Of a DNA stretch of 47,637 nucleotides, positions 1 through 33,953 are shown piece after piece. Made by a program: the position numbers and the translations under genes. The DNA lies in the IMG/VR virus record IMGVR_UViG_3300037189_007203, positions 1-47,637 of that record; one strand, written 5' to 3'. The stretch's first letter is position 1, and every line of letters starts with the position of its first letter. The notes under the pieces were generated by a model that was not told the DNA's origin, ran no database searches, and saw only the letters and a list, made by a program, of their open reading frames with translations. Origin of the DNA: a virus.

Positions 1-87
1 ATACTGGATGTTCGTGACCTTGGTCTTTTTGGCGTTCTTGAACTCTGGGGGCATGTACTTCCAGATGACCGCCTGTTGCATCTGGAT
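1..87. repeat. Terminal direct repeat, left copy
   Basis: Bases 1-87 are identical to bases 47551-47637. The overlap lies inside terL, and the terL frame continues perfectly across it, so the linear window is a circular (or terminally redundant) genome cut open inside terL. An exact repeat this short is typical of assembly overlap in a circular contig. A genuine short terminal repeat is possible but not needed to explain it. Confidence 0.97.
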
Positions 88-9944: not shown

Positions 9945-10186
9945 GCGAGCCGAACCACCTTTACCATCAGGCGTTGTCATCCAACCGCAAACTGCTGAAA
10001 GAGAACGCTCGCCTCAAAGCCGAGGTCGAAGAACTGAAACGACAGCCAGACCCGCTGATGTGTTACCTCTACGCCGCAGAAATGGCCAAGGATGACATCA
10101 AGAAACTCAAGGCTGAGGTTAAGCGACTGACCGAAGAGAACGAGCAACTCCAAAACCGATGCGACTTCTTGGAGGGCAAGCAGTAA
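9941..10186 (+). CDS. Coiled-coil protein, 81 residues
   Basis: Two heptad-rich segments are visible, KLLKENARLKAEVEELKRQ (about residues 17-35) and KDDIKKLKAEVKRLTEENEQ (about 51-70), with Leu at the a/d positions. It probably dimerises. It could be a scaffold-like or regulatory coiled coil; no family is recognised. The start is set by the ATGA overlap with the previous gene. It is the last gene before a 140-base gap that probably holds a new promoter. Confidence 0.75.
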   Translation: MSEPNHLYHQALSSNRKLLKENARLKAEVEELKRQPDPLMCYLYAAEMAKDDIKKLKAEVKRLTEENEQLQNRCDFLEGKQ

Positions 10187-11826: not shown

Positions 11827-11832
11827 TCCTTT

Positions 11833-11904
11833 GCTCCCTTAGTTCAACGGATAGAACAACTGCCTTCTAAGCAGTGAATCTAGGTTCGATTCCTAGAGGG
11901 AGCA
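11833..11904 (+). tRNA. tRNA-Arg, anticodon TCT
   Basis: The acceptor stem GCTCCCT/AGGGAGC, D stem GTTC/GAAC, anticodon stem ACTGC/GCAGT with loop CTTCTAA (anticodon TCT), and T stem CTAGG/CCTAG are all perfect. The discriminator is A. The CCA end is not encoded, unlike the other tRNA. It reads AGA and, by wobble, AGG, which is very common in this genome. It lies six bases after the ERF stop, inside the early transcript, so it must be processed out of mRNA. Confidence 0.95.
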
Positions 11905-11923
11905 ATTTTCCACCCACACACAC

Positions 11924-13152: not shown

Positions 13153-13482
13153 TTAGCGATTTCTTTGATTTTTTCCATGGAGAGGATTAGAGCCGTTCAA
13201 GACCCTCAAGACAAGTTGTATGAGTTCAGGCGTGGCTGAGCCGCAACAGGAATAGATGATGGCCTCGTACAGAGGCTCCACCTTTCCGTGGACGGCGAAG
13301 TAGCACAGCACCCCTACGATTCCGCCTGCGATGATTCGTCTTACCCATAGCCACCAAGGAACATCCTCCTTGGCCAAAAGCAACCTGCATAGGGCACCCA
13401 AGGCCCCGAGCATGGCTACAATCCACCCACCTTTCTTCAACTCTTCGGCGGTCTGTAGTAGGTTGTTATCTGGCGGAGTCAT
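13153..13482 (-). CDS. Holin (superfamily III/LydA-like)
   Basis: The product has 109 residues from the ATG at 13482. It has a short polar N-terminus, a first membrane segment (GGWIVAMLGALGALCRLLLA, residues 18-37), a second (RRIIAGGIVGVLCYFAVHG, about 48-66) and a third weaker helix (EAIIYSCCGSATPELIQLVL). The layout and the GALGAL...R pattern resemble LydA-type holins that open the inner membrane at lysis. The start overlaps the end of the giant gene by 17 bases. A longer upstream frame exists but runs inside the giant gene. The next gene is the lipoprotein, so holin and candidate spanin form the lysis cassette, with the endolysin elsewhere. Confidence 0.82.
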   Translation of the reverse strand: MTPPDNNLLQTAEELKKGGWIVAMLGALGALCRLLLAKEDVPWWLWVRRIIAGGIVGVLCYFAVHGKVEPLYEAIIYSCCGSATPELIQLVLRVLNGSNPLHGKNQRNR

Positions 13483-16400
13483 CTTCGTCTTCGAGGGCTT
13501 CGCCCTTGGTCGGAATCTTGCGGCCCATCGTGACCTTGCTGAAGTTCCTGTACATTCTGGAGAGCATCTCAAGGGTTTGGGTGTTGGGTTCGGCACGGCC
13601 CCTGCCACCGCCAGAGGGCATGAGCATGGCGATGCCATCGACAATCTTCTTCCTAAAGGCCTTCTTGTGGGCCTCCGTGGGCATGCGGGGCTTGAACCTG
13701 AGGACAGGTCCGCCGCACGAGAAGTAGGTGGACATGGCACGGGACAACGCCTCAGGGTCCGAAACGTTGACCTTGTTGACATGCTTCATCCATACCTTCG
13801 GTCCGACCACGCTGAACACAGGGCCGAAGGGTGCCATGGGCTTGGCGTTCTGGCTTCGGAACGAACTGCCTGACTTGGGTTCTTCCCCGCCTAGGTTCGA
13901 TACGACGCCGCCGAACGACGCTGGGAGGATGTTGCCCTTCCTGTTGTATTCGGAGGGGTTGTAGTCCTCGTTGAGTGCCGAAACCATGCTTTCTCCAGTC
14001 GTCTTTCCGTGGGTATGGCCTTGGGTGACATAGGCACCGACAGGGGACCACTCGCTCAGGAACTTGGAGATGTAGGGCAGTCTGCCCATGTACTTGGAAT
14101 TCTGGAAGAACGCCTCCCTGAGCATTGTCGGGTTGTTAATCTTTTCCATGATTGCACGGCCAGTCTTGGGGTCAACGAGCGTGTAGGTCCCGTCTGCGGC
14201 GACTGTGACCAAGGGTCTTTGGAATGCGTCGGTGGAGAACCCGTCGATGGACGCCTGCTTCTGCCCGTACATGATGGACTGGATGAACCAAGAAGGTGCA
14301 CCATACTGGGACACATACCCCATGGCCCTTCCAGCCTCGGACCAGTAGAACATCGAGGAGCCAGCGTTGGCCACGGCGGAGTCGATTACTCTCTGCCTGT
14401 CGTTCTTCTCTCCATCGCTGACCCTTCCGTAGTTCCGCTGGAAGAAATCAGTAGGCAAGTCCTTGGCCCTGTACGGCTTCCCGTCGGCATCGAGCATGCT
14501 ACTCTCTCCATAACTTACATACGGGTCGGCAGGTCTTCCGATGTATTCCATCGCACCCTCGATGTGGGCCTCGCCTCCTGCCACAGCCCTCCAGTAAGAA
14601 CTAACGTCACCCATGTCGGCAGGCATGATGCCGTCCGTCATAATCAGCGGAGCGGCTTCGATTGCCGCCTTGGTGACATGCAATCTGATGTCGCCGCTGA
14701 CGCCGTTATGCTCGAATGCGTTGCCGCTCCTGAACACGGACACGAAGAAGGCGTTGTCCACTTCGGCCAATCTCTTGAACAAGCCTCCGTGCAACTGACT
14801 CCTTACGGACTCTGGGAGCACGAAAATCTGGGCCATGATGTGTGCGAACGTGTTGTCCGACGCCATGGTGAGCATGTTCGCCTGCCTTCCGATGAGCATG
14901 GTCGGGACGATGTCCAACGAGTGACCTCTCATCACCTGCATTCTTGCGTCTGAATAGGTGATGGCACCGAAGCCAGCGTTGGCCGCACGAAGGACTGTGC
15001 CAGTGACGGCCACGGGCTTGTAGATGTCCTCGACTCCGTACGGAAGCGTACTGGTCAGTCTTGGGGCGTTGGTGCTCGGCTTAATCGGAACCTGAGGAGA
15101 GAGTTCGTCGATTCTCGCCTGCAAGTCCTTAATCTGGGCAGGAACGACGCCCATTCTCGACACATGCGAGATGAGCCCAGAAATCGAACTGGCGGCGAAC
15201 TGACCGAGTGCGGTGTTGGCCGCAACGTACTGCACGGCATAGGAGGCCGTATCTGCGTCTGGAGCGGGAGCCCTTTGTGCGTTCCTGAAGTCCAACTGAT
15301 GTGCGTTCATCGGATTGGAAATCATGCCAGCAGAAGGGAACAGCAGTTGTGCTGGGTTCATCCTGTCATGGTCTTGGCCTGACTCTATCAGGACGTACCT
15401 GTTCGGGTTCTGAGTGACCGAAGATGCCAGAGGACTGTCTTCGTATCCTCTTCCGAAACTTCCCTCGACGGGTGCTCCGTCTGGCTGTACTTCTGGCATG
15501 AGCATCTGATTCCTAGGAGACTCAAGACGCTCACGATAGGTTGCGATGAGGTTGTCGAAGAACTTGGCCTTGGCCAGCCTGCTTGCCCTCGGTCCAGCAT
15601 AATCACGAAGGTAATCCTGCTCCATGGCGTCGCTCGAAAGGACGGATTCCCTCATCGCCTCGATTCTGTCGATGGTTCTTGCCGCAACTGCGTCCCAGTC
15701 AACGTCCGTGGCACCGACCATGGCGTTGTTGGATTCGGTGATGTGGAGGGACTTGCTGATTACCTCTGGGTCTTGGGCCGCATAAATCATGAAGACGAAA
15801 CTCGGGGTAGGCTGGGGCCTGTTCGATGAGTCCTCACGATAACTGAAAGAATCGTTTTCAAAAACGTACCCCATGAACGACTTTGGAAGCAGTGCCGCCA
15901 TAAGGTCCCCGTGGGCCAGATTGTTGATTTGTACGGCGAGCCTTCTGCCGACCTGAACCGCCATCCTTCCAGCCTCTTCGTTTTCATGGATACGTCCAGT
16001 CCTGTAATCCTGAAGGTCTGGGTGTGCGTAGACTGGGATTGTCTCCTTGCCGATGTAGGGCCTGTAATGTGCGGGAACCTGCATGGTCCTACCAGTCTCC
16101 TTCAGCGTCAGGCTGTCCTTCAGCATGTAGAGTTCGATGGGAGAAAGGACGGACAGGTTCTTCATCAGGAACATGGTGTTCATCCTATTGTCACCACGGG
16201 CGTTCATCATCTGGAACTTGAGGTTCTGGTTGATGAGCGTCTGTGCGTCCTTGACCGATGCTTCCAGCCTCTTCTTGGCCTCGATTAGTTTGGCCAAGTC
16301 TCCAGACTTCTTGAGTCCTTCGATTTGCTCGAACGTATCTGGTAGTGACTTTTCTGCGGTGTTCGGGTCGCCGAAGGTATGGTACTGGAAGGAGTCAGAC

Positions 16401-19400
16401 TGGATTTCTTCGATGCCGATTACGGCCTCTGGGGCGTACTTGAATCCGCTGACGGCGTCTTCCCCGTGGAAGGCGGGCTCGGTATGGTTTGCGATTCCGT
16501 ACTCACCAGAGAGCACAGTCTCGGTGCTTCTGACGTGTCCCAACTGGAAGGTTCCGGGGTCATTGTTGTCGTAGTGACTGAAGTCGGCCACTTGTCCGCC
16601 GACGAGTTTTCTCACGGCTTCGACACGCTCGATGGTGTCGATGATGCTTTGAATCTTCTTCTTCTGCTCTGGAGACTGGGCATGGTTCATCCTGTCCTTG
16701 AGCGTTTCCTTAGCCCTTCTGGACTCTTCTAGGAGCCTGACGTTGGTCACTTCGACGAACTGAGGGCTGGACTGATAGAAACCAGTGAACGTCGCATAGG
16801 ACGCATGGTAGTTTCCTCCGTGGAAGTAAAGGTTCTGCTGGCTGGCCGACGGGTAGGGGTATGTGGAACCCACGCTCTTGAACACGCCAATTCCGACATT
16901 GAGGGAGGACGGGGCGTCTTCGCCAGACGTAGGATTCAGGGGGTTCGTTTCTCTGGTCTGATTGGAATACTCAATCTCATAAGGATTGATGAAGCCCAAT
17001 TCTCCCAAGAAGGTTTCGATGGTCTTGTACTGGTCGCCGAGCCTTCCCCAGATTACGTCCCTCATGACGTATTCCAACTGGGCAGGTCTTACGCCTCTAG
17101 TCTCCCCGAAGAATCCTTCCTTGGTCGCAGAGGTTTCCGTGGTGTTCCTGTAGAGGCTCCTCATGGCCTCGATGCTGTCCATCAGGCTTCCAGTGATTAG
17201 GTCTGGAGGCATGCCCATCTCGGCAATCGTGAACTCAAGGGACTTTTGAAGTGCGGCGGCGAGGGCCTGTGCGTCTGCATGGGTTTCTTCCACATGAAGT
17301 TTGTCTTCGATTAGTTTGGCTACCTTTTGGAGATTGTCCAAGTGGGTGTTGACCACGAAATCTTCCTTGGCCTGAACGTCGTCGATGAAAGGCAGGTTGT
17401 AGAGTCCGCTGAGCGAGCCAGCCTTGATATTCCTGTTTTCGGACAGGATGGGGTTGTTGTTGGCCCGTCTGATTTGCCTGCTGGTCCTAGGATAGACAGT
17501 GTAGATGAACTCGGCTAGGTCCTGTCTGGTGAGGGGTGTGTTCATGTTATCGTGCAGGAGGTACACGATGCCAGTCATGCGAATCTCGTCCTTGGAGACA
17601 GCGTTCTCCCTGATGAACTTGTACCACTCCGCACCAGTCATGCTGTCAGGGTAAAGGTCCCTGCCAGACTTACGCTTTCCGTAGGCGACGACCTTCATCA
17701 ACTTGGAGGAGAACTCGACTGGACCGCTTCCGTTTCCGAACGTGAGTTTTCTTCTGAGAAGTCCCTCCAGTTCTCTTGCGTCCCTGCTACCAATCATGAG
17801 GTTGGCGGACCTGACCTGCACGGGAGGGAGTTGGGTCTGTAACACGGAGCCAGTGCTGAGTGCCTGACTCACGGCATTCGCCTCGGTGGGAGTCATGGAC
17901 TTGTCGAAATCTCCGACGTAGTACGACTTGCTGTTAACCATGGCTAGGCCAGATTCGTTCTCCCTGAGGAACTTCCCAGTCTGTACGCTGAAGTCCACGT
18001 TCGAGTCTGGGTTCGTGACGCCCTGCTTAATCTGCGGAGCGTCCATGCCTGCGGCCACCAAGGCCTGAGCCATGATAGCCTTGCTGGCCTTGACTCCGAA
18101 TTGTGCCCTGATGGATTCGGCTTCGGCTAGTGTCTTGACTGGCACCACCTTCTTGGTGGTGATTGGGTTCCCGTACTGGTCGATGCCAGTCTGGAAGTCA
18201 TAGGTGACGAAGTAGCCAGTAGGCTTGGCCTTGGGTCCTCTGTGGACGATGGAGACGCCGTTCTCTTCCTTGCCGTCCCATGCGAACTTCAGCAAGTCCT
18301 GCCTATTGGGGAACATGAGTTCGATGGCGAGCGTGGTGTCCCCGTTCTTGGTGATGTGTCTTTCGGCGTCAGGGATGGAGAAGCCGTGGTCTGACTGGAT
18401 GGCAAGTTCTGCTACCTTCTCGATGTCTCCGAGCAGTCTCGGATTTCTTCCAAGCACGAGGGCGGCTCTTCTCGAAAATGCGGTCTTATGGTCTTCGACG
18501 CTCAAGACTTGGCCGTACTCAGAGGTGGCCTCTGGGTTTTTCTTGAGGATTTCTTCGATGTCAGCCGAATCAAGCGGAGAGGAGCCAGCGGAGTCTCTCA
18601 TCAAGGCCTCAAGCCTAGTGCTCTTTCCTCCTCCACGATGGTACTCGGGCCCGAGAGAACCAGAACTTGCTTTCATGCCTCCGTAGATGCTGGCTCCGTC
18701 TCCGAGCGGAGGAATCAGCATGCCCGTGCTTTGAGTCTGGCTGGCAAGGACTCTCATCAGGTTGGACATGGACCCTCCAATGAAGATGTTGTTCAGGACC
18801 GAACGGATGACTTCTGGCGTGGCGTCGGCTGGTAGCGTGATGCTTGCGTACTGATGTCCAGTCCTGTGGCCGAGGATGGAATAGGCCAAGGCGACTGCAT
18901 CGGCGTCGTTGTGTGCGTCGTCAGAAGACATCATCTTCTCGAACCCAGCACTCTGAGTTGAGTACCTGTACGGAATGCCAGACTTGTTTGCGTCGATGCC
19001 CTCGTACCTAGTTCTGATTGAATCACCCTTTGCGATTCTAGCCCTAGCAGACTTGATTAACTGCTTACGCCAAGACGCTCCTCCGATGGAGAACGCTTGG
19101 TTCATGCCAGAAGGCTCTGCGGCGTAATTCGACATGTTCATGTTCCCGAACAAGGCCATGTGGATGTTTGCTGGCGAGATGTCGCCAGTATACGGGTCGT
19201 AGCCTAGGGATTCCTGAATGCTGAATCCGATGGGAATCTTTCGTCTTTCTTCCTGAGGGGTATACTGCCTTCCGAGATAGCCAGCCTTGTATCCAGCATG
19301 GTCGCCAGTGATATTGATGACCAGCCTTCCGTCTTCGAGACGCTTCCATGCGAATCCAGCCATCGGATTAGTCATGAAGGGCATGTTCTCTGCGAAGTTG

Positions 19401-22400
19401 TCGTAATGGGTCGTGCCATTGTCCCTGTCAGGGACGAAGGGAAGGCCAGCGAACAATGCGGAGACGCCCTGTGCGTGTGCCTTGTACTTGATTCCACTAC
19501 CGCCGCTTTCGGTTTCATGCGTCTTCATGGACCTACTGGTGATGGCTCGTCCGCTGAGCCTGAATCTGGCAGGCTCGATGCTCACCTTGTCGGTTCCCAT
19601 CTTCTTGGCCTGAGCGATGATGGAATTGACCACGTTCTTTCTGATGAAGGTCTGGCTGATTTCCGAGCCCCTGAATCCTACATCTGCCTTATGTACGCCG
19701 AGAAGGCTGTCTGGGCTTTGGTTCGGCTGTGCTTCATCCCCCTCGACGACGAACACGTTAGGGTCGTTCGAAGCAGGGTCGTAAACCTTGAACAGAGCCT
19801 CGGCCAAGCCCATCTGCTCACCAGAGAATCCGATGGCAGGAATCTGAAATTCTCTCTGCTGAACGACGTTGGTGTCTGCCGCTACGATGGAGTGGCTTCT
19901 ATTGGGATGGTTGATATGCCCAGTGAAATGAGAGCCGACTGCGGTGTTGGATGCCGAGAAGGTGGGGGACTGCGACTTGTAAGCCAAGGGAGACATGTAC
20001 GTCATCAGGCTGGAGTGAGGCCTGTCCTTGGACGGATTTCCGTCGGTCATGTCTGGCACATAGGCCCTAGCGGAAGAATCCATGACGGACCAAGCGGCAA
20101 GAAGGGCGTTTTGGGTGATGGGGTCGCTGAAGACAGCCGATGCCATTTTTCCAATCCAATGAGGGGAAACTCCGCTATTGTAGATGCTGTTGATGTAGTC
20201 CCTTTCATTGACGCCCATTTCGGTGGCGTATCTTCCTTCCGTGAGGTAGAAGTCCAACTGCCTGTTCAACTCGGCACGGGTTTCGTTGCCGATTTTCTGC
20301 GAAAGATTCGGGGCTTCTGGGAGTCTCTTGATGTGCTGATATGCGTTCATCACGCCAAGCATCGTCAGGATTCCATAATTGGAATTGGAAGACGTCAGGT
20401 GGCTGATGATTGCGGAAATCTGCTTGGAATCCAGAGTCTCGAAGAAAGCCTTTCTGGCCGCATCCATCTCTGGGGTGAACTTCACTGAGAAGTCGTGACC
20501 CCTGTAGGCGTCTCTGGCGGCTTTGAGCAAGGCTCTCTGCTCGACGCTGAGTATGTCTCCGACTACGAGTTTGCCATTCTTGACGACAGGCACCTTTTCG
20601 GACATGGCGACGGCCAAGAAGGGTGCGATGCCGATAGCGTAACTTTCGATGGTATGTCCGCCGTCATGCTGTGAGTTGAACGTGTTGCTCTGGGAAGGCT
20701 GTGCCCAGAGTTGGTAGAAATTCGAATCAGCCGTAAGGGACTGGGTCACTCCGATGCCTTTCTCCCAAGAAGTCAGATAAAGGGCGGAATGGAGTGCGTG
20801 GATGCCATTCGTGTAGGGACGGGCGGAGTCGATGAGTACTCCCCTTTCGCTGAATGTGCCGCCCTGCTGGGTCTGCACGATGGTGGCCGCAAGGTCGGAC
20901 AGCGGACCGATGTAAGACATGGGCCTAGTGACGTTCCCGTTTCCGTCATTGATTGCACCGAAGATGATGGACCTAGCCGCAAGGTCCTTCAAGACGGACG
21001 CCTTTACGACTGGGATGTTGTACGACCTGTTTCCTACGCCAGAGGGAACGAGTCGGTTGTTCCAGATGGGAAGTTCCATGTTCCGCTTGTGCGTGAGTGC
21101 GGAAGAAGTGTCCGCAACCAAGTTCTCTTGCAGGACGAGGCCTCCGTCGGCACCACGATAGCCTCTCAGCAGTGCTAGTTCTTGGATGAATCCAGTGGAG
21201 ACAGAGCCTCCGTCCCCAATTTTTTGCACGTTTCTGTGGACATAGTCCCTGCTGGAGTTCTGGACGTCGCCGATTAGCAGGGTGGCGGACTGGGCCAGAG
21301 TTGCGGCCTGCGAAGAAATCTTGATAAGGAGCCTCATCTTATCAAGACCTGAAACTTCAGCCTCTTGGTCGGACAGTTCGTTCAGGACCTTTTCCGCAAG
21401 CGACCTCGTGGCGTAGGCGGATGAAGTCACGGACATCAGGTTATCTTGGATGTTGCTGTCGGAGTGGAATCTTCTTTCTCCGATGTCATCAATAAGTCCG
21501 TAGAAACTGAATTCCCTTTGCCCGATTTTGAAATCCGTATTGGTGATTGACCCAGCCCTGATTGTGGACTCTGAAGTGAATCCGACCATGGGCATGAGGG
21601 TCTGCAATTCGACGAAAGCATCCCTCACCTCTGGGCTGTAGCCGCTCGCATAAATGGCTGGTGCGATTCCGATTTGATTGTAAGTTCTGGACGCCTCCAT
21701 GTTGCGTGGGTCGGTATGGCTTTCATAGATGGACATCGAACTACCGAATGACCTGTGGGACTGCGTACCGACTCCGTTGACGGAGTGAGTCCTGAATCCA
21801 GCGAGGTCTGGCTCAAGCATGGCCAGAGACGCTTCGTCCAATAGCGAGAACTTGACGGCCATCAGTTGGTCGGCCTGCGTCGGGTCCATACCCTCGGTAC
21901 CAGAGGACAACTTTTCGATAATCTTCTGATAGAACGGCTTAATCAGGAACATCTTTCTCGCAATCCTCCTGTTGAGCAATTCGGCCTGCTGTTCGATGGC
22001 CGCTCTCATGAGCCTTTCGGCATCCGTGTCAGCAAGGCCTTGTTTGACACCAAAGTATCCAGCGTCCAGATACCCCTTATTGGCCCACTTATCAGTCAGT
22101 TTAGCCCAAACGGCATCCTCGACCCAGTCGGGCTTCCTCGGAATAAAAACCGCTCTTCCAGTCGTAAAGTCAAAGTTTAGAAGACCGAACCTGTTTTTTC
22201 CGTAACTTCCTACGGAAGAATTCATGCTCTGGAAAATCGTATCGAATTGCGGAGGCATCGCATCACGACCAACCAGAGTATCAATGAAATTTCTTACTGG
22301 GTCGTTGGTGCTGTAGTATGAGTTGCCCTTGAATGCGGCATCGACGGAAGAAATCAATTTCTGCGGAGTGGCATTTTCAACGTCGAACTTGGCCTTCATC

Positions 22401-25400
22401 AAGGCACCGACGCCCATAGACCTAGTGGCGGTTCTTTCGTGGACCAACTGCCTGTGTGCTATTGAGATGAGGTCAACCAGTTCTCCCTTGGTCAGTGTCT
22501 CAGGGAAGTCCGTAAGGTCCACTTGTGAGAACAGGGCGGCGTTGGAAAGAAGAAGTCCGTCTTCGCTGATTCCCCTGCTCTTGAGGATTTCTGGGAGGTC
22601 TTTTGCCTTAACCACCGACGGGAAGTCGTCTCTCGTGATGATGTCCATGGCCTCGGTGGGCGTGATTAACTCGCTTTCAGACACGACGATGCCGTCGATG
22701 ATTCTGGCGATGTCTTCGAGCGTCACAGTAGTCTGCCCGTCCTTGGCTATTGCGTTGTAGATGCCAAGGCTTCCGTCGCCGTGGCCCTGAACCGAGGCGT
22801 TATCAAACTCTCCGTGGAGGAGGTTCCTCGTCCTGTCTAGCGATTGTGCCTTGTTGCCCCTCACTCTGATGATGCCCTGCCTGAAGGCGAGACGGGGGAC
22901 GCCGTCCTTACCGATTTCCCAGCCTCTTCCGTAGAAGGCTACGGCATTGAGTCGCTGTAGTTCGTTGTCGAGAGTCCTCAGGACCCAAGACACCAGAGCA
23001 CCTCTGGCCATCAGTTTAAGGGGGTCGTTGGACCTTTCTTCTGGCTTCAGCCTAGAGTCCCCAGTGCCAGCAATCATCAGATTGGCCACACGGATGGGGG
23101 TTTTGTTCTTCAGGGCCAGTCCGATGGCCTTGATGCTGTTGCCAGCGTACCCGATTTCCATGGCCCCCTTGATTGCGTCCAGACCATTGACTCTGGTCAT
23201 GTCAGGGTTGATGCCAGTGGAGTTCAACTCCTCTTGGGTCATCCTCGACCTGCTTTCGGTCAGGTTGGCCTCGATTTCATGCTTCTGGGACAGGTACTGC
23301 ATCGTGCTGACAGTACTGAAGATTTCCTTGGCCTTGGCGGCAAACGAGCCGACGTCGAGGCCGTGGGGGCCAGAGTCAGCCATCTTGCTGATAATCTGGA
23401 ATGCGTTGAGGGCCTGCATCGAACGCCTCATGTACTTCAGCGAGTTGTTCATGCCGTTGTACAGCCTGTAAGCCAGAGGAGAGTTCTCGACGGAGAGCAT
23501 TCCGATTCCGCTCTCAAGGAGGTTCTCAAGTTCCATGACATGCTCGCAGACGATGTCCTTGGCATGTGCTTCCCTGATTTCACCACGCCTGAAGGATTCC
23601 ATGGCCTCCTTGGCCTTGTTCCTGATGTCTGCGATTCTCTTGGACAGCCTTTCTGCGTTCACCCTAGACATGTGCCCAGCGGGGTGGTGCATGTGTGCGT
23701 CCGCAAGCCCGAGCATGGACTCTTCCGCAACCCTGATGAGGTTGGGGTAGGCGTACTGCCTGAGGTGCATGTGCATCGGAGAGCCAGCCATCTTGATGAT
23801 GGACTGGATAATCTGTGCGTTCTGGAACTGCGTGGGGGAACTGGAGGGGTCGTCGGTGAAGAAGACCCTACCGCTGTCATTGACCACTCTTTCGGTGCTC
23901 AGGGTCCTGCCAGCCTCGCCCGTGATGTTGTTGAGCAGAATCAGGCCTGCGTTCTGGAACAACTTGCTGTCCTTGACGGAGACGGAGTCGGTCCATTGCT
24001 CACGACGCTGGATGGCATGCTGGACTTCGTGCAGGATTGTCTCGACGGCGTTACGCTCGAAGTCGATGCCGAAGGATGCGTAGTCTAGGTGGTCAGGGGA
24101 GCCACGTTCGTGCATCTCCTTGCCGATGAATCTGTCGATACCGAGCGTGATGACGTCCGCATCTGGGTTGTAGTAGGCACCATATCCGTAGTCCCACTCG
24201 ACCCTGACATCCTTGAGGGACGGGTAATGCAGGTACAGGAGCCTGTGGTCCAGCAGTTCGCCTAGTTTGAGCGAGTCCGTGGACATCATGGGGGCCTGAC
24301 TACGCATGAAGTCCTTGTAGTATGCGTCGAAGTCGGCCTGTCCTCCCTTGGAGAACGGAATAAGGTGCAACTTGCCTCCGACCTTTTCGGTCAGAAGTCT
24401 TGCTTCCTTGTCGCTGAATTCGAAGGCCTTGTAGTACTTGCCGCTGTCGGTCTTTACGAAGCGAAGGGCACCAGAGGCGACCATGTCAATCTCCTTGGCG
24501 GACATGCCAGCAAGCATGAGGTTCGCACTTCCAGACTTGCCAGACTTGATTCTGTAGGGCGACGGCTTGTTGACGTCGTAGCCCATCTGCCTGTATTGCT
24601 CATGAAGAGACTTGACCGCTTCGGCCACCCTCTTGGTGAACTTGTGATGACCCTTGGCTTCGCCAGTGATGTTAAGGGACGCACCGATGATTGAAGATGC
24701 GTTGCCGAGCCTTCTTCTGGTGCTGTTGTTGGCTACGTTCTTGGCCGTCGAAAGAGAATCCAAAGATGCGTTGGAAACAGTATGGATAATCTTGGCGTAA
24801 CCCCTGTTCGCTAGGGCTTTTGCGTAATCGGCGGGAGTGGTGTTGGCCCAATTGGCCGTGACCACGGGATTCCCGTTCTTGTCGATACGCATGAACGTAT
24901 TGCGGGTCCTGCCATAGTAGTTGTTGGGGTCGCCTGCTAGGATGCTCTTGGCCATTTCGGCCATCATCGCACCAGTAGCGACGCCATGCAGGTAGACTAA
25001 ATCTGCGTTGTTGATTCCGCCTTCGTACAGGCTTCTGACAAAGTCCTGAAGACCTTGAGCGGAGCCTTGCTTTGCAGGGTCGAAAGGAATCTTGAGTGCG
25101 TTTGCGATGTCTGCGACATGTCCGACGTGCCATCCGCTGTCGTAAGCCTTGAAGGTAGTGCCAGTGCCCCTGAGCCCAGAGAACGGAACGACTCCTAAGA
25201 TGGTGGTTTCGAGGTCGGTGGGCATCTCGACCTTCCCTCTTTCCCCGAACAGGGAGTGCATGGGGTTCGTGAGCCCAGTGGAAGGCTCCGTGGTCATGTT
25301 CAGGGCGTCTCCCTTGTCCGTGTAGGAGCCCATCAGGGTCAGTCCCTCGTTGATTGCCACGAACTTGGTGCCGTTCAGGTCCGAGATACCAGTCAGGATG

Positions 25401-28400
25401 ATTGACTTACCCTTGTCAGTGCTGGACAGGAATCTGGCTACTTGGACATCCGTGTTGGCGTCTTTTGCTCCGAATTCAATCGGGTAAGAAGGGCTGGTCG
25501 GGGAATAGACGTCCGCATACGCACCCTCCGTATCCATGGAGGACGCAACGTTCTCACGGATAAAGGCTTCGTTTCCAGCACGTCCGAAGTTCGAGAGCGT
25601 CTGCCTGTCGCCTACCTTGGTGAAGGCATGGCTGGCCCACTGGCTGGTCTTGTACTTCTGATAGACGTGCCAGAAGATGCCTACTTTGTGCGGGATTCCG
25701 TTGCTGTGTACAGTAGGAAGGGTCTTTTGGTCGTATTGGTCGAAGAACTTAGATACGATGTCGGGCAGTGCCCACTTGGCGGCATTAATCTGGGCCGTGA
25801 ACATCATGCCTAGGCTCAGGATTCTGGACTCTCCCTTGAGGAAGGACTCAGTGATTCCAATCGCCCAGTTATTCAACGCCGACTGGACCTGCTGTGGCAT
25901 CAGGGCCAGAAGGTCGATTGGGTTTCCAGCAGGGTCTAGGGGCTTGAAGCCAGAGAAGTAGCCGAACAGTTTGCTGGCGTACCTAGGCATCTCCCCGTTG
26001 GGCGTTTCGATTGTTCCAGAAACCCAAGACGGGACTCTGGAGGGTCTGACCTTAACGGCAGGGTTGATGGAGAACCCTAAGGCCATATCAGAGTAGGCCT
26101 TTTCCTGACGCTCATTGACCCAAGCATCAAACGAAGCGGCGTCTTTGTTAGGGTAGGAAGTATCGGCGTTGAATTCTGCGTAGTGCTGTCCGAGCAGTAC
26201 GCCAACCCTGTAAGACGCAAGCATGTCTCCGTCCATCTCCGCAAATGCGGTCCTGATGGCGTCGGCACGTTTGTTCTTAAAGTCAATTAGGCCCTGAAGG
26301 TAGATGCCAATCAGGGTGGCCGCAGAGGTGACGGAACCAGCGGAAGACAGGGAGTAGTCGGCCAGTCCAATCTGCCTGTTGCCCTGAGGTCCAGCCCTCA
26401 GTCCAGCAAGGACTCCGCCAGAGAATTCGGCCCTAGGGTCGTAGGTGGCTTCAAGGGCGTCGAACAGGGGGCCGATGGCTTCCCTGAACTCTTCCGAATT
26501 CTTGATTAGTTTGCTGAGTTTTACTACGGGTACGTCGTTCGGACCCTGAGACTTGCCGTGGAACCTGACATCATTGATGTGGTTCTGAATATCAAAGGAG
26601 AAGTCTGAGACTTCCTTAGACTTATGCTCGATGGTAAGGGGGAAGAACTTAGGTCTTCCGTCTCCGCCAATACTCGTCATCAGGTTCGCAGACCCGCTGT
26701 AGACAGAAGAAGGCTTAACCTGCTGGTCTGACAGCGACTCTTGGATGATTCCGTCGCCGTAGTCGTCGGACTTTGGAGCAATCTCCGCCATGTCCAACTT
26801 CTTGACGTTCTTTTCTGCGGCCTGCTGGGCTTTCGCCACGGACTTGAATACCCCGAGCAGGTTGCCGAAGGGATTGAAAAGTTTGAAGGAGGGTTCTTCC
26901 CCCCTGATTTCGTAGCCGTTTCCGTCCGTGTAGAAACTGCGTCCGTTCTGGAGTTCACGCTTAACGAAACTGCCAATCATGGCATTCCGACGCATGGGCT
27001 CATAGGCCAGACCCTTATTGAACCTGAGTGCACCCAACTGGCCCCTGAAGGCTTCTGGGAAAATCTGAGACTGCTTCAGGACGTTCGCCATGAGGTCGAA
27101 CCTGAGCGAGTGAATGGGGTAATTGGGTCCGTCTCTGCCGCCAGAGTAGCCCTCTGGGGCGTTGATGTAGGACTCGTCGTTACGCTTACGTCCGCCCCAA
27201 GTCTCGTACATGATGTCCCTGACACGCTCGGCGTTGGAGCCGAACTCTGGCCTGAGGAACTCTGCGGAGGGCTTTCTCTGGCTCGGGTCGAGAGACTGCT
27301 GTTCGAACCAGTTTACGAAAGTCTCGGAGAAATGGCCGAAGTCCTTGAACAGAGACTTCACATCACCCCTCTGCCACATGTTCATCTTACGCCTGTTCAG
27401 CACGTTGATGTCCATGGCGTGGACAGTGACATGCGAACGGGGGTTTCTCAGAGGCGAACCATTCTCGTCAACCTTACTGATGGTCAGTTCGATGGCGAAA
27501 GGTGCGAAGTGTCTTAGGGTGACGGGGACTTGACGGCCTTTTAGTCTTTCGCCGAGGGCGGCTTCCACGACCTGCTGGCTGAATCCTAGGTATTGGCAGG
27601 TGAAGGAATTGAACACTGGCTTGCCAGCATCAACCTGCTTGATGACATCGACGAGCCCCCTGAGGATGTCGAACTCCTCCTTGCTGTACACGCCGCTGTC
27701 ATAGACGGCCTGCCATGCCTCGTTGGTGAGGTTGGTAAGGTCGATTTTCTTAGTTCCGTTTGCAGTGACATCCCACTTGGGCTTGATTGCGTCAGAAAGG
27801 GTGTCGAGGGCGTTGGCAATTTTGTCGGCGTCTTCGGTAATCTGGAATTCAATCTCCTTTTTGCTCTTCACCTTGCCGCCCTTGAGGAACCTCTGCTTGC
27901 CGTTCTGCTTCATGTACGCTTCGGCCTTTTCGCCCTGTAGCGTCATGACGTTCACATCCCCGTATCTGAGGACGTCCCTCATGGTCTTGTCAGTCCACTG
28001 GTCTAGCAACTCAAACGACTGGAACTTTCCGTCATCCCAGAACACTGACTCTAGGAGCGTGGTATCACCCTTGACCTTCTTCTTGATGAGTACTCCAGCG
28101 GCCTCCAAGTCATTGACTTTTCTTTGGTTCATCAGGGTGAACCAATTTTCCATGGTGTACCTGATGGACTTGAACTTGGGGTCACGAAGGAAGATGTCTG
28201 GAGACTTTCTGAGTAGGCTGTTCGACTGATTGTATGCGAACACTTCATGAATCATCCTTTCAAGGACGGGGTGGTCATGGAAGAGTCTGAATTTTGTTAC
28301 CTTTCCGTAGCCATTGTCCCTCTCTTCTGGTGTGAAGGGATTTTGAGGGTCTGCGGCCAACTCTTTTCTGACTTCGGCCAACTGCTCCTTAACGTAGGCT

Positions 28401-30418
28401 ATGTTCCCGTAGCCTCCGTCTTGGGTCTTGTCCGATGGCCCATAAAGCCATGCGTCATCAAGTCCAAATCTTGCTTTGCTGTACTGACCGATAAACTCTG
28501 CCAGAACTGCATCTGGGACTACTCCGCCATCTACAGCCTTGCCAATGAAGTTTCTTACGGACTCGTGTGCGGTATTGTCGTTTCTGCTGAATAGAGTGTC
28601 CAAGAATCTGTGAGAGTATTCATGGACACCAGTCTCAGGGCTGGCGGCTTCTTTGTTTAGCCAGATGATGTTTCTTCCGCCAAAAGTAAGGTCGCCTCCC
28701 TTGACAGAACGTGCCTCCTCAAAAGTTCCACCTACTTGGTGCATGAACTCCTGCTGTCCGTACTCCTTAATCATTTCCTCGGCACTCTTAAATCTCACCT
28801 CGGAGTCCGGAGAAGTCACCCACCCCATCATGAACTGTGCTCTTACAGTGGCGGATACTCTTGCGGAGCCCTTTGAGTCTACGAACTTGAGAAACTCCCT
28901 GACTTCTTCCGCATGCCTAGGATTGGTCTTTGAAATCTCTACAATCTGGGCATTGTCAAAGTTCTCGATGATTCTAGAGTGTGCGATGCTGTGGTTGTAG
29001 ACGTTATGGATGTGTCTAAGGCCTCCAGAGAAGCCTCCCCAAGCAAAGCCTACGCCCATGCCGCTTGACGCACCTTCGCCTCTTGCGTTCGCATAGCCAA
29101 GTACGCCCATGTAAGCGGCGTCTCCGATGGCTCTCTTGAGGGTCGGGAATGCCATGGATGCAGGCCAGCCAACTACGACGTTGGTGAACTTGGCTACGAC
29201 CTGAGCCTCCTTGCTCATCGAGATTCTTCCCCCGTTAAGGGCCAGTCGCTCCATCAGGTCCATGCCAGAATAGGCAGGGTTAATTTTCACGACCCCTTGG
29301 GCGGCATCAATCAGTTCGTTGCCGAAGACGCTGGCATACTCTGCGATAGGCTTAACTCCAAGAGAGAAGAGTACGCTTCTTACTGGACCAAGTTCCGTGC
29401 CTCTGGCCGCAACTTCAGTTACATCGCTGAGAAGGGTCGAGGAGCCGTTGGCAAGTTCGTTTGGAACATAGCCGAGCCTAGATTCGATTGCGGTGGAGCC
29501 TCTTGCGATTCTGTCCTTAATGAAGTCGAAAGGCTTGGAAACAACTTCCGCAGTTCCGACCATCGTCTCGCCAGTTAATTTTTGTGATAGTTTTCTAAAT
29601 TTGGCGGCGTTTACCGAGAACCAGTCTTCAGCCTGCTTGGCATCTTGGGCCAGAATCGTACCAGTCGCTTCTTCTGCGACGTCCTTGAACGCATTGATGG
29701 ACGATTTGAGCCCGTTACGCTTAAAAGCAGACTTGATGAACTGAGGCGTATCTAACCCAATGTAAGAGACTGCATTGGCAAACTTAGGGTCAATGAGCGA
29801 ACGGGCGAATTGCCTGTAGTCATCAGGAACCCAGTCCTCTAACACAGTGTCCTTCCCTTCTTCTAAGGCGTTGCTCTTGTTGCCCCACCATCTGGCTTCG
29901 TTGAACTGCTTGATTCTGTCTTCGACAGTTCCTCCGCCAGTGATGAAATCTTTGAACCTAAACAGCGGAGAAGAGGGGTCTTCGGACTGTGCAAGAAGCA
30001 CATACAGGTCACGTGCGTCTCTGGCGATGCCGTCCGCAACGGATACTGATGTCTTTACTGGGTTGTTTGAGAATACGCCCTTTACGATGTCAACAGGGAC
30101 ATGGGCGATTGTTTCGACCATCTTCCCGAAGTGACTGAACGAAAACTTGTTGCGTCTGTGATTCGCTTCTTCGAATTGCCTGAAAAGATTTCTTCCCTCT
30201 GGCGTTGTATGGTCAAAGGTTCTATCCCTGTTCTCCTGCATGAAGTCATAAACTTCATCGTTTGTAAGAACCCCGCTGGGAGATTCGTCGATGTTGCCAG
30301 ACGCAGTCGGGTAAGAGAGATGGATTTGCTCCATCGCCCCGCCTTTGAACAATTCATTAGCCGCCCTGTTTAGTAGGGCGTCTTCGTCGGCGTTGAATTT
30401 AGGGTAGTTGTTTTCCAT
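13466..30418 (-). CDS. Giant polyvalent protein, 5,650 residues, with two zinc-metallopeptidase domains
   Basis: One uninterrupted frame fills over a third of the genome. The ATG at 30418 overlaps the previous stop (TAATG), fixing the start. Visible modules: a Gly-rich hydrophobic stretch (about 410-465); a gluzincin-like site HEYSH at 599-603, with a possible third ligand in MIHEVFAY further on; a second metallopeptidase HEVQH at 2130-2134, preceded by a segment around LGELLDHRLLYLHYPSLKD and followed by a candidate third ligand, E2383, in HEIEANLTESRSR; an AEWYKFIR...KDEI domain near 4260-4320; and EEIQSDSFQ at 4670-4678. The last two resemble segments typical of polyvalent phage proteins. 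ANLM recurs four times. The gene lies between internal virion proteins and lysis genes, so it is probably packaged and injected to act on host proteins. No RNA polymerase motif was seen. Confidence 0.92.
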   Translation of the reverse strand: MENNYPKFNADEDALLNRAANELFKGGAMEQIHLSYPTASGNIDESPSGVLTNDEVYDFMQENRDRTFDHTTPEGRNLFRQFEEANHRRNKFSFSHFGKMVETIAHVPVDIVKGVFSNNPVKTSVSVADGIARDARDLYVLLAQSEDPSSPLFRFKDFITGGGTVEDRIKQFNEARWWGNKSNALEEGKDTVLEDWVPDDYRQFARSLIDPKFANAVSYIGLDTPQFIKSAFKRNGLKSSINAFKDVAEEATGTILAQDAKQAEDWFSVNAAKFRKLSQKLTGETMVGTAEVVSKPFDFIKDRIARGSTAIESRLGYVPNELANGSSTLLSDVTEVAARGTELGPVRSVLFSLGVKPIAEYASVFGNELIDAAQGVVKINPAYSGMDLMERLALNGGRISMSKEAQVVAKFTNVVVGWPASMAFPTLKRAIGDAAYMGVLGYANARGEGASSGMGVGFAWGGFSGGLRHIHNVYNHSIAHSRIIENFDNAQIVEISKTNPRHAEEVREFLKFVDSKGSARVSATVRAQFMMGWVTSPDSEVRFKSAEEMIKEYGQQEFMHQVGGTFEEARSVKGGDLTFGGRNIIWLNKEAASPETGVHEYSHRFLDTLFSRNDNTAHESVRNFIGKAVDGGVVPDAVLAEFIGQYSKARFGLDDAWLYGPSDKTQDGGYGNIAYVKEQLAEVRKELAADPQNPFTPEERDNGYGKVTKFRLFHDHPVLERMIHEVFAYNQSNSLLRKSPDIFLRDPKFKSIRYTMENWFTLMNQRKVNDLEAAGVLIKKKVKGDTTLLESVFWDDGKFQSFELLDQWTDKTMRDVLRYGDVNVMTLQGEKAEAYMKQNGKQRFLKGGKVKSKKEIEFQITEDADKIANALDTLSDAIKPKWDVTANGTKKIDLTNLTNEAWQAVYDSGVYSKEEFDILRGLVDVIKQVDAGKPVFNSFTCQYLGFSQQVVEAALGERLKGRQVPVTLRHFAPFAIELTISKVDENGSPLRNPRSHVTVHAMDINVLNRRKMNMWQRGDVKSLFKDFGHFSETFVNWFEQQSLDPSQRKPSAEFLRPEFGSNAERVRDIMYETWGGRKRNDESYINAPEGYSGGRDGPNYPIHSLRFDLMANVLKQSQIFPEAFRGQLGALRFNKGLAYEPMRRNAMIGSFVKRELQNGRSFYTDGNGYEIRGEEPSFKLFNPFGNLLGVFKSVAKAQQAAEKNVKKLDMAEIAPKSDDYGDGIIQESLSDQQVKPSSVYSGSANLMTSIGGDGRPKFFPLTIEHKSKEVSDFSFDIQNHINDVRFHGKSQGPNDVPVVKLSKLIKNSEEFREAIGPLFDALEATYDPRAEFSGGVLAGLRAGPQGNRQIGLADYSLSSAGSVTSAATLIGIYLQGLIDFKNKRADAIRTAFAEMDGDMLASYRVGVLLGQHYAEFNADTSYPNKDAASFDAWVNERQEKAYSDMALGFSINPAVKVRPSRVPSWVSGTIETPNGEMPRYASKLFGYFSGFKPLDPAGNPIDLLALMPQQVQSALNNWAIGITESFLKGESRILSLGMMFTAQINAAKWALPDIVSKFFDQYDQKTLPTVHSNGIPHKVGIFWHVYQKYKTSQWASHAFTKVGDRQTLSNFGRAGNEAFIRENVASSMDTEGAYADVYSPTSPSYPIEFGAKDANTDVQVARFLSSTDKGKSIILTGISDLNGTKFVAINEGLTLMGSYTDKGDALNMTTEPSTGLTNPMHSLFGERGKVEMPTDLETTILGVVPFSGLRGTGTTFKAYDSGWHVGHVADIANALKIPFDPAKQGSAQGLQDFVRSLYEGGINNADLVYLHGVATGAMMAEMAKSILAGDPNNYYGRTRNTFMRIDKNGNPVVTANWANTTPADYAKALANRGYAKIIHTVSNASLDSLSTAKNVANNSTRRRLGNASSIIGASLNITGEAKGHHKFTKRVAEAVKSLHEQYRQMGYDVNKPSPYRIKSGKSGSANLMLAGMSAKEIDMVASGALRFVKTDSGKYYKAFEFSDKEARLLTEKVGGKLHLIPFSKGGQADFDAYYKDFMRSQAPMMSTDSLKLGELLDHRLLYLHYPSLKDVRVEWDYGYGAYYNPDADVITLGIDRFIGKEMHERGSPDHLDYASFGIDFERNAVETILHEVQHAIQRREQWTDSVSVKDSKLFQNAGLILLNNITGEAGRTLSTERVVNDSGRVFFTDDPSSSPTQFQNAQIIQSIIKMAGSPMHMHLRQYAYPNLIRVAEESMLGLADAHMHHPAGHMSRVNAERLSKRIADIRNKAKEAMESFRRGEIREAHAKDIVCEHVMELENLLESGIGMLSVENSPLAYRLYNGMNNSLKYMRRSMQALNAFQIISKMADSGPHGLDVGSFAAKAKEIFSTVSTMQYLSQKHEIEANLTESRSRMTQEELNSTGINPDMTRVNGLDAIKGAMEIGYAGNSIKAIGLALKNKTPIRVANLMIAGTGDSRLKPEERSNDPLKLMARGALVSWVLRTLDNELQRLNAVAFYGRGWEIGKDGVPRLAFRQGIIRVRGNKAQSLDRTRNLLHGEFDNASVQGHGDGSLGIYNAIAKDGQTTVTLEDIARIIDGIVVSESELITPTEAMDIITRDDFPSVVKAKDLPEILKSRGISEDGLLLSNAALFSQVDLTDFPETLTKGELVDLISIAHRQLVHERTATRSMGVGALMKAKFDVENATPQKLISSVDAAFKGNSYYSTNDPVRNFIDTLVGRDAMPPQFDTIFQSMNSSVGSYGKNRFGLLNFDFTTGRAVFIPRKPDWVEDAVWAKLTDKWANKGYLDAGYFGVKQGLADTDAERLMRAAIEQQAELLNRRIARKMFLIKPFYQKIIEKLSSGTEGMDPTQADQLMAVKFSLLDEASLAMLEPDLAGFRTHSVNGVGTQSHRSFGSSMSIYESHTDPRNMEASRTYNQIGIAPAIYASGYSPEVRDAFVELQTLMPMVGFTSESTIRAGSITNTDFKIGQREFSFYGLIDDIGERRFHSDSNIQDNLMSVTSSAYATRSLAEKVLNELSDQEAEVSGLDKMRLLIKISSQAATLAQSATLLIGDVQNSSRDYVHRNVQKIGDGGSVSTGFIQELALLRGYRGADGGLVLQENLVADTSSALTHKRNMELPIWNNRLVPSGVGNRSYNIPVVKASVLKDLAARSIIFGAINDGNGNVTRPMSYIGPLSDLAATIVQTQQGGTFSERGVLIDSARPYTNGIHALHSALYLTSWEKGIGVTQSLTADSNFYQLWAQPSQSNTFNSQHDGGHTIESYAIGIAPFLAVAMSEKVPVVKNGKLVVGDILSVEQRALLKAARDAYRGHDFSVKFTPEMDAARKAFFETLDSKQISAIISHLTSSNSNYGILTMLGVMNAYQHIKRLPEAPNLSQKIGNETRAELNRQLDFYLTEGRYATEMGVNERDYINSIYNSGVSPHWIGKMASAVFSDPITQNALLAAWSVMDSSARAYVPDMTDGNPSKDRPHSSLMTYMSPLAYKSQSPTFSASNTAVGSHFTGHINHPNRSHSIVAADTNVVQQREFQIPAIGFSGEQMGLAEALFKVYDPASNDPNVFVVEGDEAQPNQSPDSLLGVHKADVGFRGSEISQTFIRKNVVNSIIAQAKKMGTDKVSIEPARFRLSGRAITSRSMKTHETESGGSGIKYKAHAQGVSALFAGLPFVPDRDNGTTHYDNFAENMPFMTNPMAGFAWKRLEDGRLVINITGDHAGYKAGYLGRQYTPQEERRKIPIGFSIQESLGYDPYTGDISPANIHMALFGNMNMSNYAAEPSGMNQAFSIGGASWRKQLIKSARARIAKGDSIRTRYEGIDANKSGIPYRYSTQSAGFEKMMSSDDAHNDADAVALAYSILGHRTGHQYASITLPADATPEVIRSVLNNIFIGGSMSNLMRVLASQTQSTGMLIPPLGDGASIYGGMKASSGSLGPEYHRGGGKSTRLEALMRDSAGSSPLDSADIEEILKKNPEATSEYGQVLSVEDHKTAFSRRAALVLGRNPRLLGDIEKVAELAIQSDHGFSIPDAERHITKNGDTTLAIELMFPNRQDLLKFAWDGKEENGVSIVHRGPKAKPTGYFVTYDFQTGIDQYGNPITTKKVVPVKTLAEAESIRAQFGVKASKAIMAQALVAAGMDAPQIKQGVTNPDSNVDFSVQTGKFLRENESGLAMVNSKSYYVGDFDKSMTPTEANAVSQALSTGSVLQTQLPPVQVRSANLMIGSRDARELEGLLRRKLTFGNGSGPVEFSSKLMKVVAYGKRKSGRDLYPDSMTGAEWYKFIRENAVSKDEIRMTGIVYLLHDNMNTPLTRQDLAEFIYTVYPRTSRQIRRANNNPILSENRNIKAGSLSGLYNLPFIDDVQAKEDFVVNTHLDNLQKVAKLIEDKLHVEETHADAQALAAALQKSLEFTIAEMGMPPDLITGSLMDSIEAMRSLYRNTTETSATKEGFFGETRGVRPAQLEYVMRDVIWGRLGDQYKTIETFLGELGFINPYEIEYSNQTRETNPLNPTSGEDAPSSLNVGIGVFKSVGSTYPYPSASQQNLYFHGGNYHASYATFTGFYQSSPQFVEVTNVRLLEESRRAKETLKDRMNHAQSPEQKKKIQSIIDTIERVEAVRKLVGGQVADFSHYDNNDPGTFQLGHVRSTETVLSGEYGIANHTEPAFHGEDAVSGFKYAPEAVIGIEEIQSDSFQYHTFGDPNTAEKSLPDTFEQIEGLKKSGDLAKLIEAKKRLEASVKDAQTLINQNLKFQMMNARGDNRMNTMFLMKNLSVLSPIELYMLKDSLTLKETGRTMQVPAHYRPYIGKETIPVYAHPDLQDYRTGRIHENEEAGRMAVQVGRRLAVQINNLAHGDLMAALLPKSFMGYVFENDSFSYREDSSNRPQPTPSFVFMIYAAQDPEVISKSLHITESNNAMVGATDVDWDAVAARTIDRIEAMRESVLSSDAMEQDYLRDYAGPRASRLAKAKFFDNLIATYRERLESPRNQMLMPEVQPDGAPVEGSFGRGYEDSPLASSVTQNPNRYVLIESGQDHDRMNPAQLLFPSAGMISNPMNAHQLDFRNAQRAPAPDADTASYAVQYVAANTALGQFAASSISGLISHVSRMGVVPAQIKDLQARIDELSPQVPIKPSTNAPRLTSTLPYGVEDIYKPVAVTGTVLRAANAGFGAITYSDARMQVMRGHSLDIVPTMLIGRQANMLTMASDNTFAHIMAQIFVLPESVRSQLHGGLFKRLAEVDNAFFVSVFRSGNAFEHNGVSGDIRLHVTKAAIEAAPLIMTDGIMPADMGDVSSYWRAVAGGEAHIEGAMEYIGRPADPYVSYGESSMLDADGKPYRAKDLPTDFFQRNYGRVSDGEKNDRQRVIDSAVANAGSSMFYWSEAGRAMGYVSQYGAPSWFIQSIMYGQKQASIDGFSTDAFQRPLVTVAADGTYTLVDPKTGRAIMEKINNPTMLREAFFQNSKYMGRLPYISKFLSEWSPVGAYVTQGHTHGKTTGESMVSALNEDYNPSEYNRKGNILPASFGGVVSNLGGEEPKSGSSFRSQNAKPMAPFGPVFSVVGPKVWMKHVNKVNVSDPEALSRAMSTYFSCGGPVLRFKPRMPTEAHKKAFRKKIVDGIAMLMPSGGGRGRAEPNTQTLEMLSRMYRNFSKVTMGRKIPTKGEALEDEDDSAR

Positions 30419-31371
30419 TATCGGCCTCGGACAGTGCCACGCATCATCTGAGATTGCTTGGATTGCTGCCTTCCGTCGATTAGGTCGATGCCGTTGTTTC
30501 CTGCAACATCTTTCAACTTCATCAATACGCCTTCTCTTGCGTTGTCTAAAAGCATCATTTCGTTGCCACCTAGTCTGGTGAACATCGTGGAGGCTCTTTG
30601 GGGAACCATGCTCTCTGCGATGGCCATGTCGTTGTCGGACACGTTTCCTCCCATGCCCTTCATGTCTTTCATGATGCTAAGGTAGTCCATCTTGATGTTG
30701 GACTCCAACGCCCTAGCCATGGCCGAGTCCCCAGAAGGGTCCAATGAGCCAAGATAGGTGTTACCAGCGTAGATTCTTTTCAACTGATTAGACATCTGCT
30801 GGAATCTCTGGACTCTGCCGATGAGCGACCTGAAGTCTTGGGCCTTCATATCACCGCCCTTGAACGGAAGACTCTTGACGCCCATCTTACGGGCGATGCC
30901 GAACGCAGACACGGACTGGGTGGTTCCATTTCCAGCATCGACGCTGTAAGAGCCCTTTGGGGCCATGAGCATCTGATAACTGCTCTTTTTGCCGTCTTCC
31001 GAATAGTCCTCAAAGTCAATGGCTTCTCCGACTTGGAACAGGGAAGGCCCCTTGCTTTTCATCAGTGATTCGACGGCTCCATAGTCGCCGATGCCTGCAT
31101 AGAACTTGGCGTCGTTAATTCGGAAATCTGCGTTATTGGAAGCGGCACGTTCTTTTTCCATGCCTTCCCCGTACTTAGCACGGGCTTTCTGGTACTCTTC
31201 CCTGCCGATTCCACTGTACCCAGACAGGTGTGCGTACCTATTCCCCGTAATACGCTGAGAAATGTCTTCCTCTGTCTGTCTTTGGTTTCCGCCAAACATC
31301 TGGCCAGTAGTAAGGCCAGCCTGACCTTTTACGTCACCAGCATACTGGGAGTAGTCTTGTGAGTCTTCCAT
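30418..31371 (-). CDS. Probable internal virion protein, 317 residues
   Basis: No family is recognised. The protein is helical and Met/Gln/Ser-rich, starts MEDSQDYSQYAGDVKGQAGL and ends with a Gln/Met/Arg-rich tail. Its stop overlaps the start of the giant gene (TAATG) and it follows the next gene upstream by three bases, so it is translated with the giant protein. Position just before a giant, probably injected protein, and within a run of similar proteins, suggests an ejection or internal core protein. This is inferred from context. Confidence 0.7.
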   Translation of the reverse strand: MEDSQDYSQYAGDVKGQAGLTTGQMFGGNQRQTEEDISQRITGNRYAHLSGYSGIGREEYQKARAKYGEGMEKERAASNNADFRINDAKFYAGIGDYGAVESLMKSKGPSLFQVGEAIDFEDYSEDGKKSSYQMLMAPKGSYSVDAGNGTTQSVSAFGIARKMGVKSLPFKGGDMKAQDFRSLIGRVQRFQQMSNQLKRIYAGNTYLGSLDPSGDSAMARALESNIKMDYLSIMKDMKGMGGNVSDNDMAIAESMVPQRASTMFTRLGGNEMMLLDNAREGVLMKLKDVAGNNGIDLIDGRQQSKQSQMMRGTVRGR

Positions 31372-31374
31372 GGT

Positions 31375-32811: not shown

Positions 32812-32824
32812 TGTTGTAAATTAG

Positions 32825-33952: not shown

Positions 33953-33953
33953 G

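Follow-up and report, generated by a model that had tools for sequence, protein, structure and literature searches.

The window, the whole 47,637-bp viral record analysed here, is dominated by a single open reading frame on its minus strand. This giant frame runs for 16,953 bp and 5,650 codons with its sole stop at the end, and its start overlaps the stop of the upstream gene as TAATG. The record carries an exact 87-bp direct repeat at its termini, and the frame of the terminase large subunit reads through the repeat junction; this sets the unit genome, which is probably complete, at 47,550 bp. The giant frame occupies 35.7% of this unit genome. A first-pass annotation made from the letters alone had proposed one unbroken gene, with its start fixed by the TAATG overlap, taking up over a third of a phage genome, and the frame was confirmed to the base and without interruption. 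In random sequence of the same composition, 5,650 stop-free codons would occur with a probability of about 1e-101. A dN/dS of 0.06-0.24 in the C-terminal part (window versus the relative L010) indicates purifying selection.

As had also been proposed, the gene sits in the late block, between tail/ejection-type genes and a holin-like gene directly downstream. The motifs named in the earlier reading were all recovered: both HExxH sites lie exactly where they had been placed, a plausible downstream Glu is present for each, AEWYKFIR (placed near residue 4260) is found at 4263 and EEIQSD at 4670. Coordinates are collected in Table 1. Elsewhere in the window, two tRNA-Arg genes lie among the plus-strand genes, at 5368-5442 and 11832-11905 (anticodons ACG and TCT).

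Table 1. Features of the giant gene and its surroundings, in window coordinates.
Feature	Position	Strand	Remarks
Direct terminal repeat	1..87		Identical to 47551-47637
Holin-like gene directly downstream of the giant	13153..13482	-	Weak Phage_holin_3_2 match
Giant ORF, 5,650 aa	13466..30418	-	Frame and homologues
EEIQSD domain, aa 4525-4700	16319..16846	-	
W...L..GVxKDEIRxTG domain, aa 4226-4330	17429..17743	-	Contains AEWYKFIR
Zincin 2 domain, aa 1985-2415	23174..24466	-	LPD23/DUF6782-linked type, by profile homology
E2381 (HEIEA), candidate third zinc ligand, site 2	23276..23278	-	Invariant, 15/15
HEVQH, aa 2130-2134	24017..24031	-	HExxH kept, 15/15
Diverged-allele segment, window versus G004	24531..34573		Giant aa 1-1962 and four preceding genes
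Hypervariable block, aa 1201-1950	24569..26818	-	
N-terminal module, aa 1-1200	26819..30418	-	Best conserved part among distant relatives
Putative zincin 1, aa 545-760	28139..28786	-	
E725 (E-x-F-A), candidate third zinc ligand, site 1	28244..28246	-	Invariant, 15/15
HEYSH, aa 599-603	28610..28624	-	
Gly-rich, weakly hydrophobic conserved segment, aa 403-466	29021..29212	-	
317-aa Cys-free ejection-type gene	30418..31371	-	Adjoins the giant
478-aa Cys-free ejection-type gene	31375..32811	-	Very fast evolving
375-aa Cys-free ejection-type gene	32825..33952	-	Gly-rich hydrophobic segment, aa 156-174
315-aa Cys-free ejection-type gene	33954..34901	-	

The giant protein family and its modules

Homologues of the giant are encoded by 14 public virome contigs, which gives 15 sequences with the window. 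Seven IMG/VR contigs are close relatives, and further members were added by profile scans. Eleven of the homologues are unbroken from end to end, as is the window frame. These eleven span 5,615-6,436 aa (L008, 5,653; L009, 5,729; L010, 5,649; L011, 5,632; L041, 5,615; L131, 5,828; L132, 5,831; L133, 5,710; L134, 5,676; G015, 6,436; G017, 6,301). In full-size records the gene takes a share of about 36-38% (5,649 aa in 47,557 bp; 5,831 in 47,772; 6,436 in 51,894; 6,301 in 49,248). Portal proteins, where found, are 71-97% identical among the phages that bear these homologues, which are therefore related phages of one larger group. Large tracts of the giant fall to 10-20% identity across all 15 sequences.

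The homologues in L013 and G008 run off contig ends. L012 (record G006) holds the sole broken homologue, in which one missing base yields pieces of 2,367 and 3,289 aa. The break (L012:7571-7600) falls just after the zincin 2 glutamate helix and shows an ATGA stop-start overlap with GAGG just upstream. It is either a natural split gene or a sequencing error; if not an error, it marks the point at which a naturally two-piece form would be divided. Two further observations concern other frames. L136 (record G016) encodes a different giant of at least 4,797 aa with HEFTH, HEGRH and HEIQH and without EEIQSD, and the minus strand of L045 (record G008, a far relative) carries a 700-aa Pro/Lys-rich frame, MAKPRPKPKPKPRG...

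The long stretches that had matched nothing at first pass are equally silent in the databases: no Pfam, NCBIfam or PHROG family covers the giant. Scans of overlapping pieces against Pfam, PHROG and NCBIfam and Pfam scans of the aligned relatives and distant members returned nothing, and PDB sequence profiles gave nothing credible. A tblastn search with each half of the giant found no match among 50,697 phage records, and a pattern built on one conserved segment gave 23 hits in bacterial genomes, none of them a relative. A match to a birnavirus RdRp (E 0.01, below cut-off) was taken as chance.

Zincin 2 has the HE[IV]QHA helix, the preceding YP..V...GA.Y....I.LG strands and the distal Glu that form the signature of LPD23/DUF6782-linked zincins. 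Together with its preceding strands it aligns to outside polyvalent zincins at 99.8% in hhalign (E 4.5e-29), and those zincins match Pfam LPD23 (6e-14) and, below cut-off, DUF6782 'putative metallopeptidase'. Pfam models scanned directly over the giant missed the domain. By profile homology, zincin 2 belongs to the LPD23/DUF6782-linked polyvalent zincins. AlphaFold2 modelled aa 1225-2424 at low confidence (pLDDT 48.5); at zincin 2 this low-confidence model places three strands, the HExxH helix and the distal Glu on a helix, an arrangement that fits a zincin.

Profile comparison ties site 1 to zincins only weakly (p 0.004). Of the 15 sequences, 14 have the first HExxH intact, and the variant in L134 is HExxxH (HEILSH), a form reported for polyvalent zincins (Iyer et al. 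2017, PMC5512222). Site 1 is accordingly described here as a putative zincin, from its invariant candidate ligands.

The other two motifs belong to larger domains. AEWYKFIR lies in a W-x3-L...GVxKDE-I-R-x-[TS]-G domain and EEIQSD in an H-x-R...EEIQSD domain, with EE[ILF]QSD invariant in 15/15 homologues. Both modules occur in the same order in a 4,012-aa protein of Nostoc phage Nsp-JY18, annotated as a 'lysin' (XAI95354; iE 2e-5 for W...GVxKDE), which also has 0 Cys and a 47.6-kb genome. It differs in its LPD22-like N-terminus (just below cut-off), its single HExxH, which lies elsewhere, and its length, 1,600 aa shorter, and no global alignment is possible. The EEIQSD domain may also recur in Pelagibacter phage HTVC028P gp34, Pseudoalteromonas phage PH1 and Dolichospermum phage Dfl-JY45. 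This recurrence is suggestive only, because the region reaches 57% (E 1e-4) in profile-profile comparison with a joint alignment. The outside records were found with query peptides written as consensus motifs; it is the alignments that carry the conclusions. In HTVC028P gp34 and PH1, the EEIQSD region falls outside all Pfam families. A 2,387-aa protein of Dfl-JY45 (L035:6175-13338) carries four ART-PolyVal stretches and two copies of an EEIQSD-like domain (ELQSD/EIQSD). Assignment of the EEIQSD domain to ART-PolyVal was dropped, with no PF18760 match in 9 members and a candidate YHGG His that is not invariant. The AlphaFold2 model of aa 4500-4935 was of low confidence (pLDDT 54.7), and Foldseek found no significant match for this model or for that of aa 1225-2424. 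Profile scans of the giant and its relatives identified no second biochemical activity beside zincin 2.

Cysteine depletion and inheritance in blocks

The giant contains 3 Cys in 5,650 residues, against 59 expected from the rest of the genome (Poisson P ~8e-22), and none of the three positions is conserved among homologues. The five preceding genes contain none in 1,736 residues (Poisson P ~1e-8), and the rest of the genome has 74 in 7,074. Ejected proteins taken as controls are Cys-free: N4 vRNAP (0/3500), T7 gp15 (0/747), T7 gp16 (0/1318) and P22 gp7, gp20 and gp16 together (0/1309). The other T7 and P22 proteins counted have 1.0-1.3% Cys. Counts in other giants are 0/4667 for BcepIL02 gp70, 1/3787 for H66 gp60 and 0/3764 for Parlo 081. 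A published account of N4-like vRNAP attributes its lack of Cys to the need to pass the tail free of disulphides (PMC3915230). Because the depletion matches that of known ejected proteins, it supports ejection of the giant. It is support rather than proof, since some capsid proteins (the N4 major coat protein, the T7 scaffold) also lack Cys and some ejection proteins contain it (three in N4 gp54, one in T7 gp14).

Within the giant, the Gly-rich segment at aa 403-466 gives no strong TM peak in hydropathy; an interaction of this segment with the membrane is possible. Among the preceding genes, the 478- and 375-aa genes (31375-33952) are 20-35% identical or undetectable between phages whose portals are more than 90% identical.

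Compared with its nearest relative (G004), the window is 92-96% identical in DNA almost everywhere; over 24.5-34.5 kb, identity is down to 68-71% or undetectable. At the protein level, a 251-aa gene is 97% identical and the next four genes are 48, 25, 21 and 68% identical. In the giant itself the values are 62% for aa 1-1200, 25% for aa 1201-1950 and 97% for aa 1990-3000. A second, short gap between the two genomes (9730-10170, no blastn match) lies among early genes.

Hypervariability of the middle 750 aa persists even in comparison with a relative that shares 86% identity in the N module. The dN/dS of this block, about 0.4-0.54 (versus G004 and L011), is above that of the flanks and is a rough value because dS is saturated. 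L010 is split in its affinities: L012 is closest for the N module (74%) and for the neighbouring 317-, 478- and 375-aa proteins, the window for the C module and tail proteins. Trees of the N, middle and C blocks disagree; in AU tests the C tree is rejected by the N data (2e-93) and by the middle block (1e-4), and the N tree by the C data (2e-51).

Judged from these comparisons, the N-terminal third of the giant and the four preceding ejection-type genes recombine as a unit, apart from the C-terminal two-thirds. The first-pass annotation had read the giant as a packaged multi-domain effector; its polyvalent type, zincin 2 homology and Cys depletion speak for a packaged, injected protein, but the giant is not one unit and consists instead, by the same comparisons, of at least three separately inherited blocks. 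Since the N-terminal third travels with upstream ejection-type genes, a large share of its residues probably serves delivery and not an effector function, with the caveat that co-exchange of neighbours can also reflect simple linkage.

A probable delivery part, a proposed payload and the alternatives

We consider it likely that the giant is a polyvalent protein which a podovirus-like phage packages in its virion and ejects, and that it has two functional parts, one for delivery and one serving as payload. Two marks of polyvalent proteins are present, a polyvalent-group zincin within the chain and a location among virion genes, and the giant combines zincin 2 with the two modules also found in another giant. 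It resembles polyvalent proteins (PMC5512222) in its very long chain, zincin(s), late-gene context, reused modules and predicted packaging and injection; unlike them, it has no annotated enzymatic domain beyond the zincins, and its family is invisible to Pfam, NCBIfam and PHROGs. A positional parallel is Pseudomonas phage H66 gp60 (PLxRFG, 3,787 aa), which has a homologous zincin (hmmsearch 3e-8) and a single Cys, is annotated as a virion protein verified by mass spectrometry, and lies directly before holin, lysozyme and spanin. The giant likewise closes the virion block, of which it is the largest gene, with the holin immediately after it. H66 gp60 differs in carrying LPD23, LPD3 and weak methyltransferase matches and in lacking EEIQSD, and the remainder cannot be aligned. 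Packaging and injection are the most likely fate of the giant.

For the N-terminal part (about aa 1-1960, including zincin site 1 and the Gly-rich segment), we propose that it would form an envelope-crossing delivery complex with the four preceding Cys-free proteins, filling the place of T7 gp16, P22 gp16 or the N4 vRNAP N-terminus. A role in crossing the envelope is most likely for this part because it is inherited with Cys-free ejection-type genes, occupies the gene position of T7 and P22 gp16, and contains the Gly-rich aa 403-466. Sequence profiles found no homology between the N module and T7 gp16, N4 vRNAP or BcepIL02 gp70.

The C-terminal part (about aa 1960-5650) would be the payload, made up of the DUF6782/LPD23-type zincin, several unnamed domains and the W...GVxKDE and EEIQSD modules. 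It would thread unfolded through the tail, enter the cytoplasm and act early in infection; N4 vRNAP, a globular protein ejected through a tail channel of about 35 Å, provides a precedent for such unfolding (PMC12633501). Zincin 2 would probably cut the chain itself, by auto-processing at or after delivery, or cut host proteins, and P1 DdrB is a precedent for zincin self-processing (PMC5512222). More tentatively, and short of calling it probable, we suggest that delivery machinery and cargo are fused in one chain: the first third may be an ejectosome subunit co-evolving with its neighbours, the rest an exchangeable payload and the hypervariable block a spacer, with a zincin that may free the payload once it has arrived.

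The whole chain could instead be a DNA-injection machine, an outsized analogue of T7 gp16 that stays in the envelope, uses its zincins only for maturation of the complex or for opening the cell wall, and brings no payload to the cytoplasm. Gene position and Cys depletion suit an envelope conduit as well as a payload, and profile scans found no recognisable effector enzyme in the giant. However, the giant has modules in common with polyvalent giants, and its C-terminal two-thirds are inherited apart from the ejection genes; we regard this explanation as unlikely.

Also quite unlikely, in our assessment, is an anti-restriction coat of the P1 DarA/DarB or Bcep22 DarB-like kind, packaged to guard the phage DNA against host nucleases on entry. 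In its size, its gene position and its lack of Cys the giant resembles BcepIL02 gp70 (4,667 aa) and JC1 gp69 (4,515 aa). Each of these is the largest protein of its phage and closes the virion block; BcepIL02 gp70 contains 0 Cys, and JC1 gp69 has been found in virions (PMC9144972). Against this, the giant has no detectable homology to either protein, and no helicase, methyltransferase or transglycosylase domain was found in it; a protective function as such may still apply.

An N4-type virion RNA polymerase with diverged motifs would account for a giant, Cys-free, ejected protein that has a zincin-like HExxH domain and stands at the end of the virion block, as N4 vRNAP (3,500 aa) does. Nevertheless, a conserved set of polymerase motifs is missing from the giant's family, profile comparison with vRNAP gives no match (E at least 0.09), there is no sequence homology, and the gene takes 36% of the genome against 15% in N4, so that this explanation is very improbable. 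An assembly artefact or a decayed gene that stays open by chance, for which only the one-base break in L012 could speak, is refuted by 11 independent unbroken homologues and purifying selection.

The two-part, ejected polyvalent protein favoured here extends a known class. Giant packaged polyvalent proteins of 4,515-4,667 aa have been described in Bcep22-like podophages, and a 12,242-aa polyvalent protein is known from a plasmid (PMC5512222). What is new is the giant's family, its share of the genome and the intragenic exchange that may separate delivery from payload. The family is an uncatalogued one of phage proteins of 5.6-6.4 kaa, present in several lineages of one phage group, whose genes fill 36-38% of small genomes; such a cost implies a large benefit early in infection. 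Natural recombination within the gene points to a possible boundary between delivery and payload functions, and the passage of a giant protein through a 3-4 nm tail thereby becomes directly testable. Depletion of Cys could also serve as a simple screen for injected proteins among uncharacterised phage genes.
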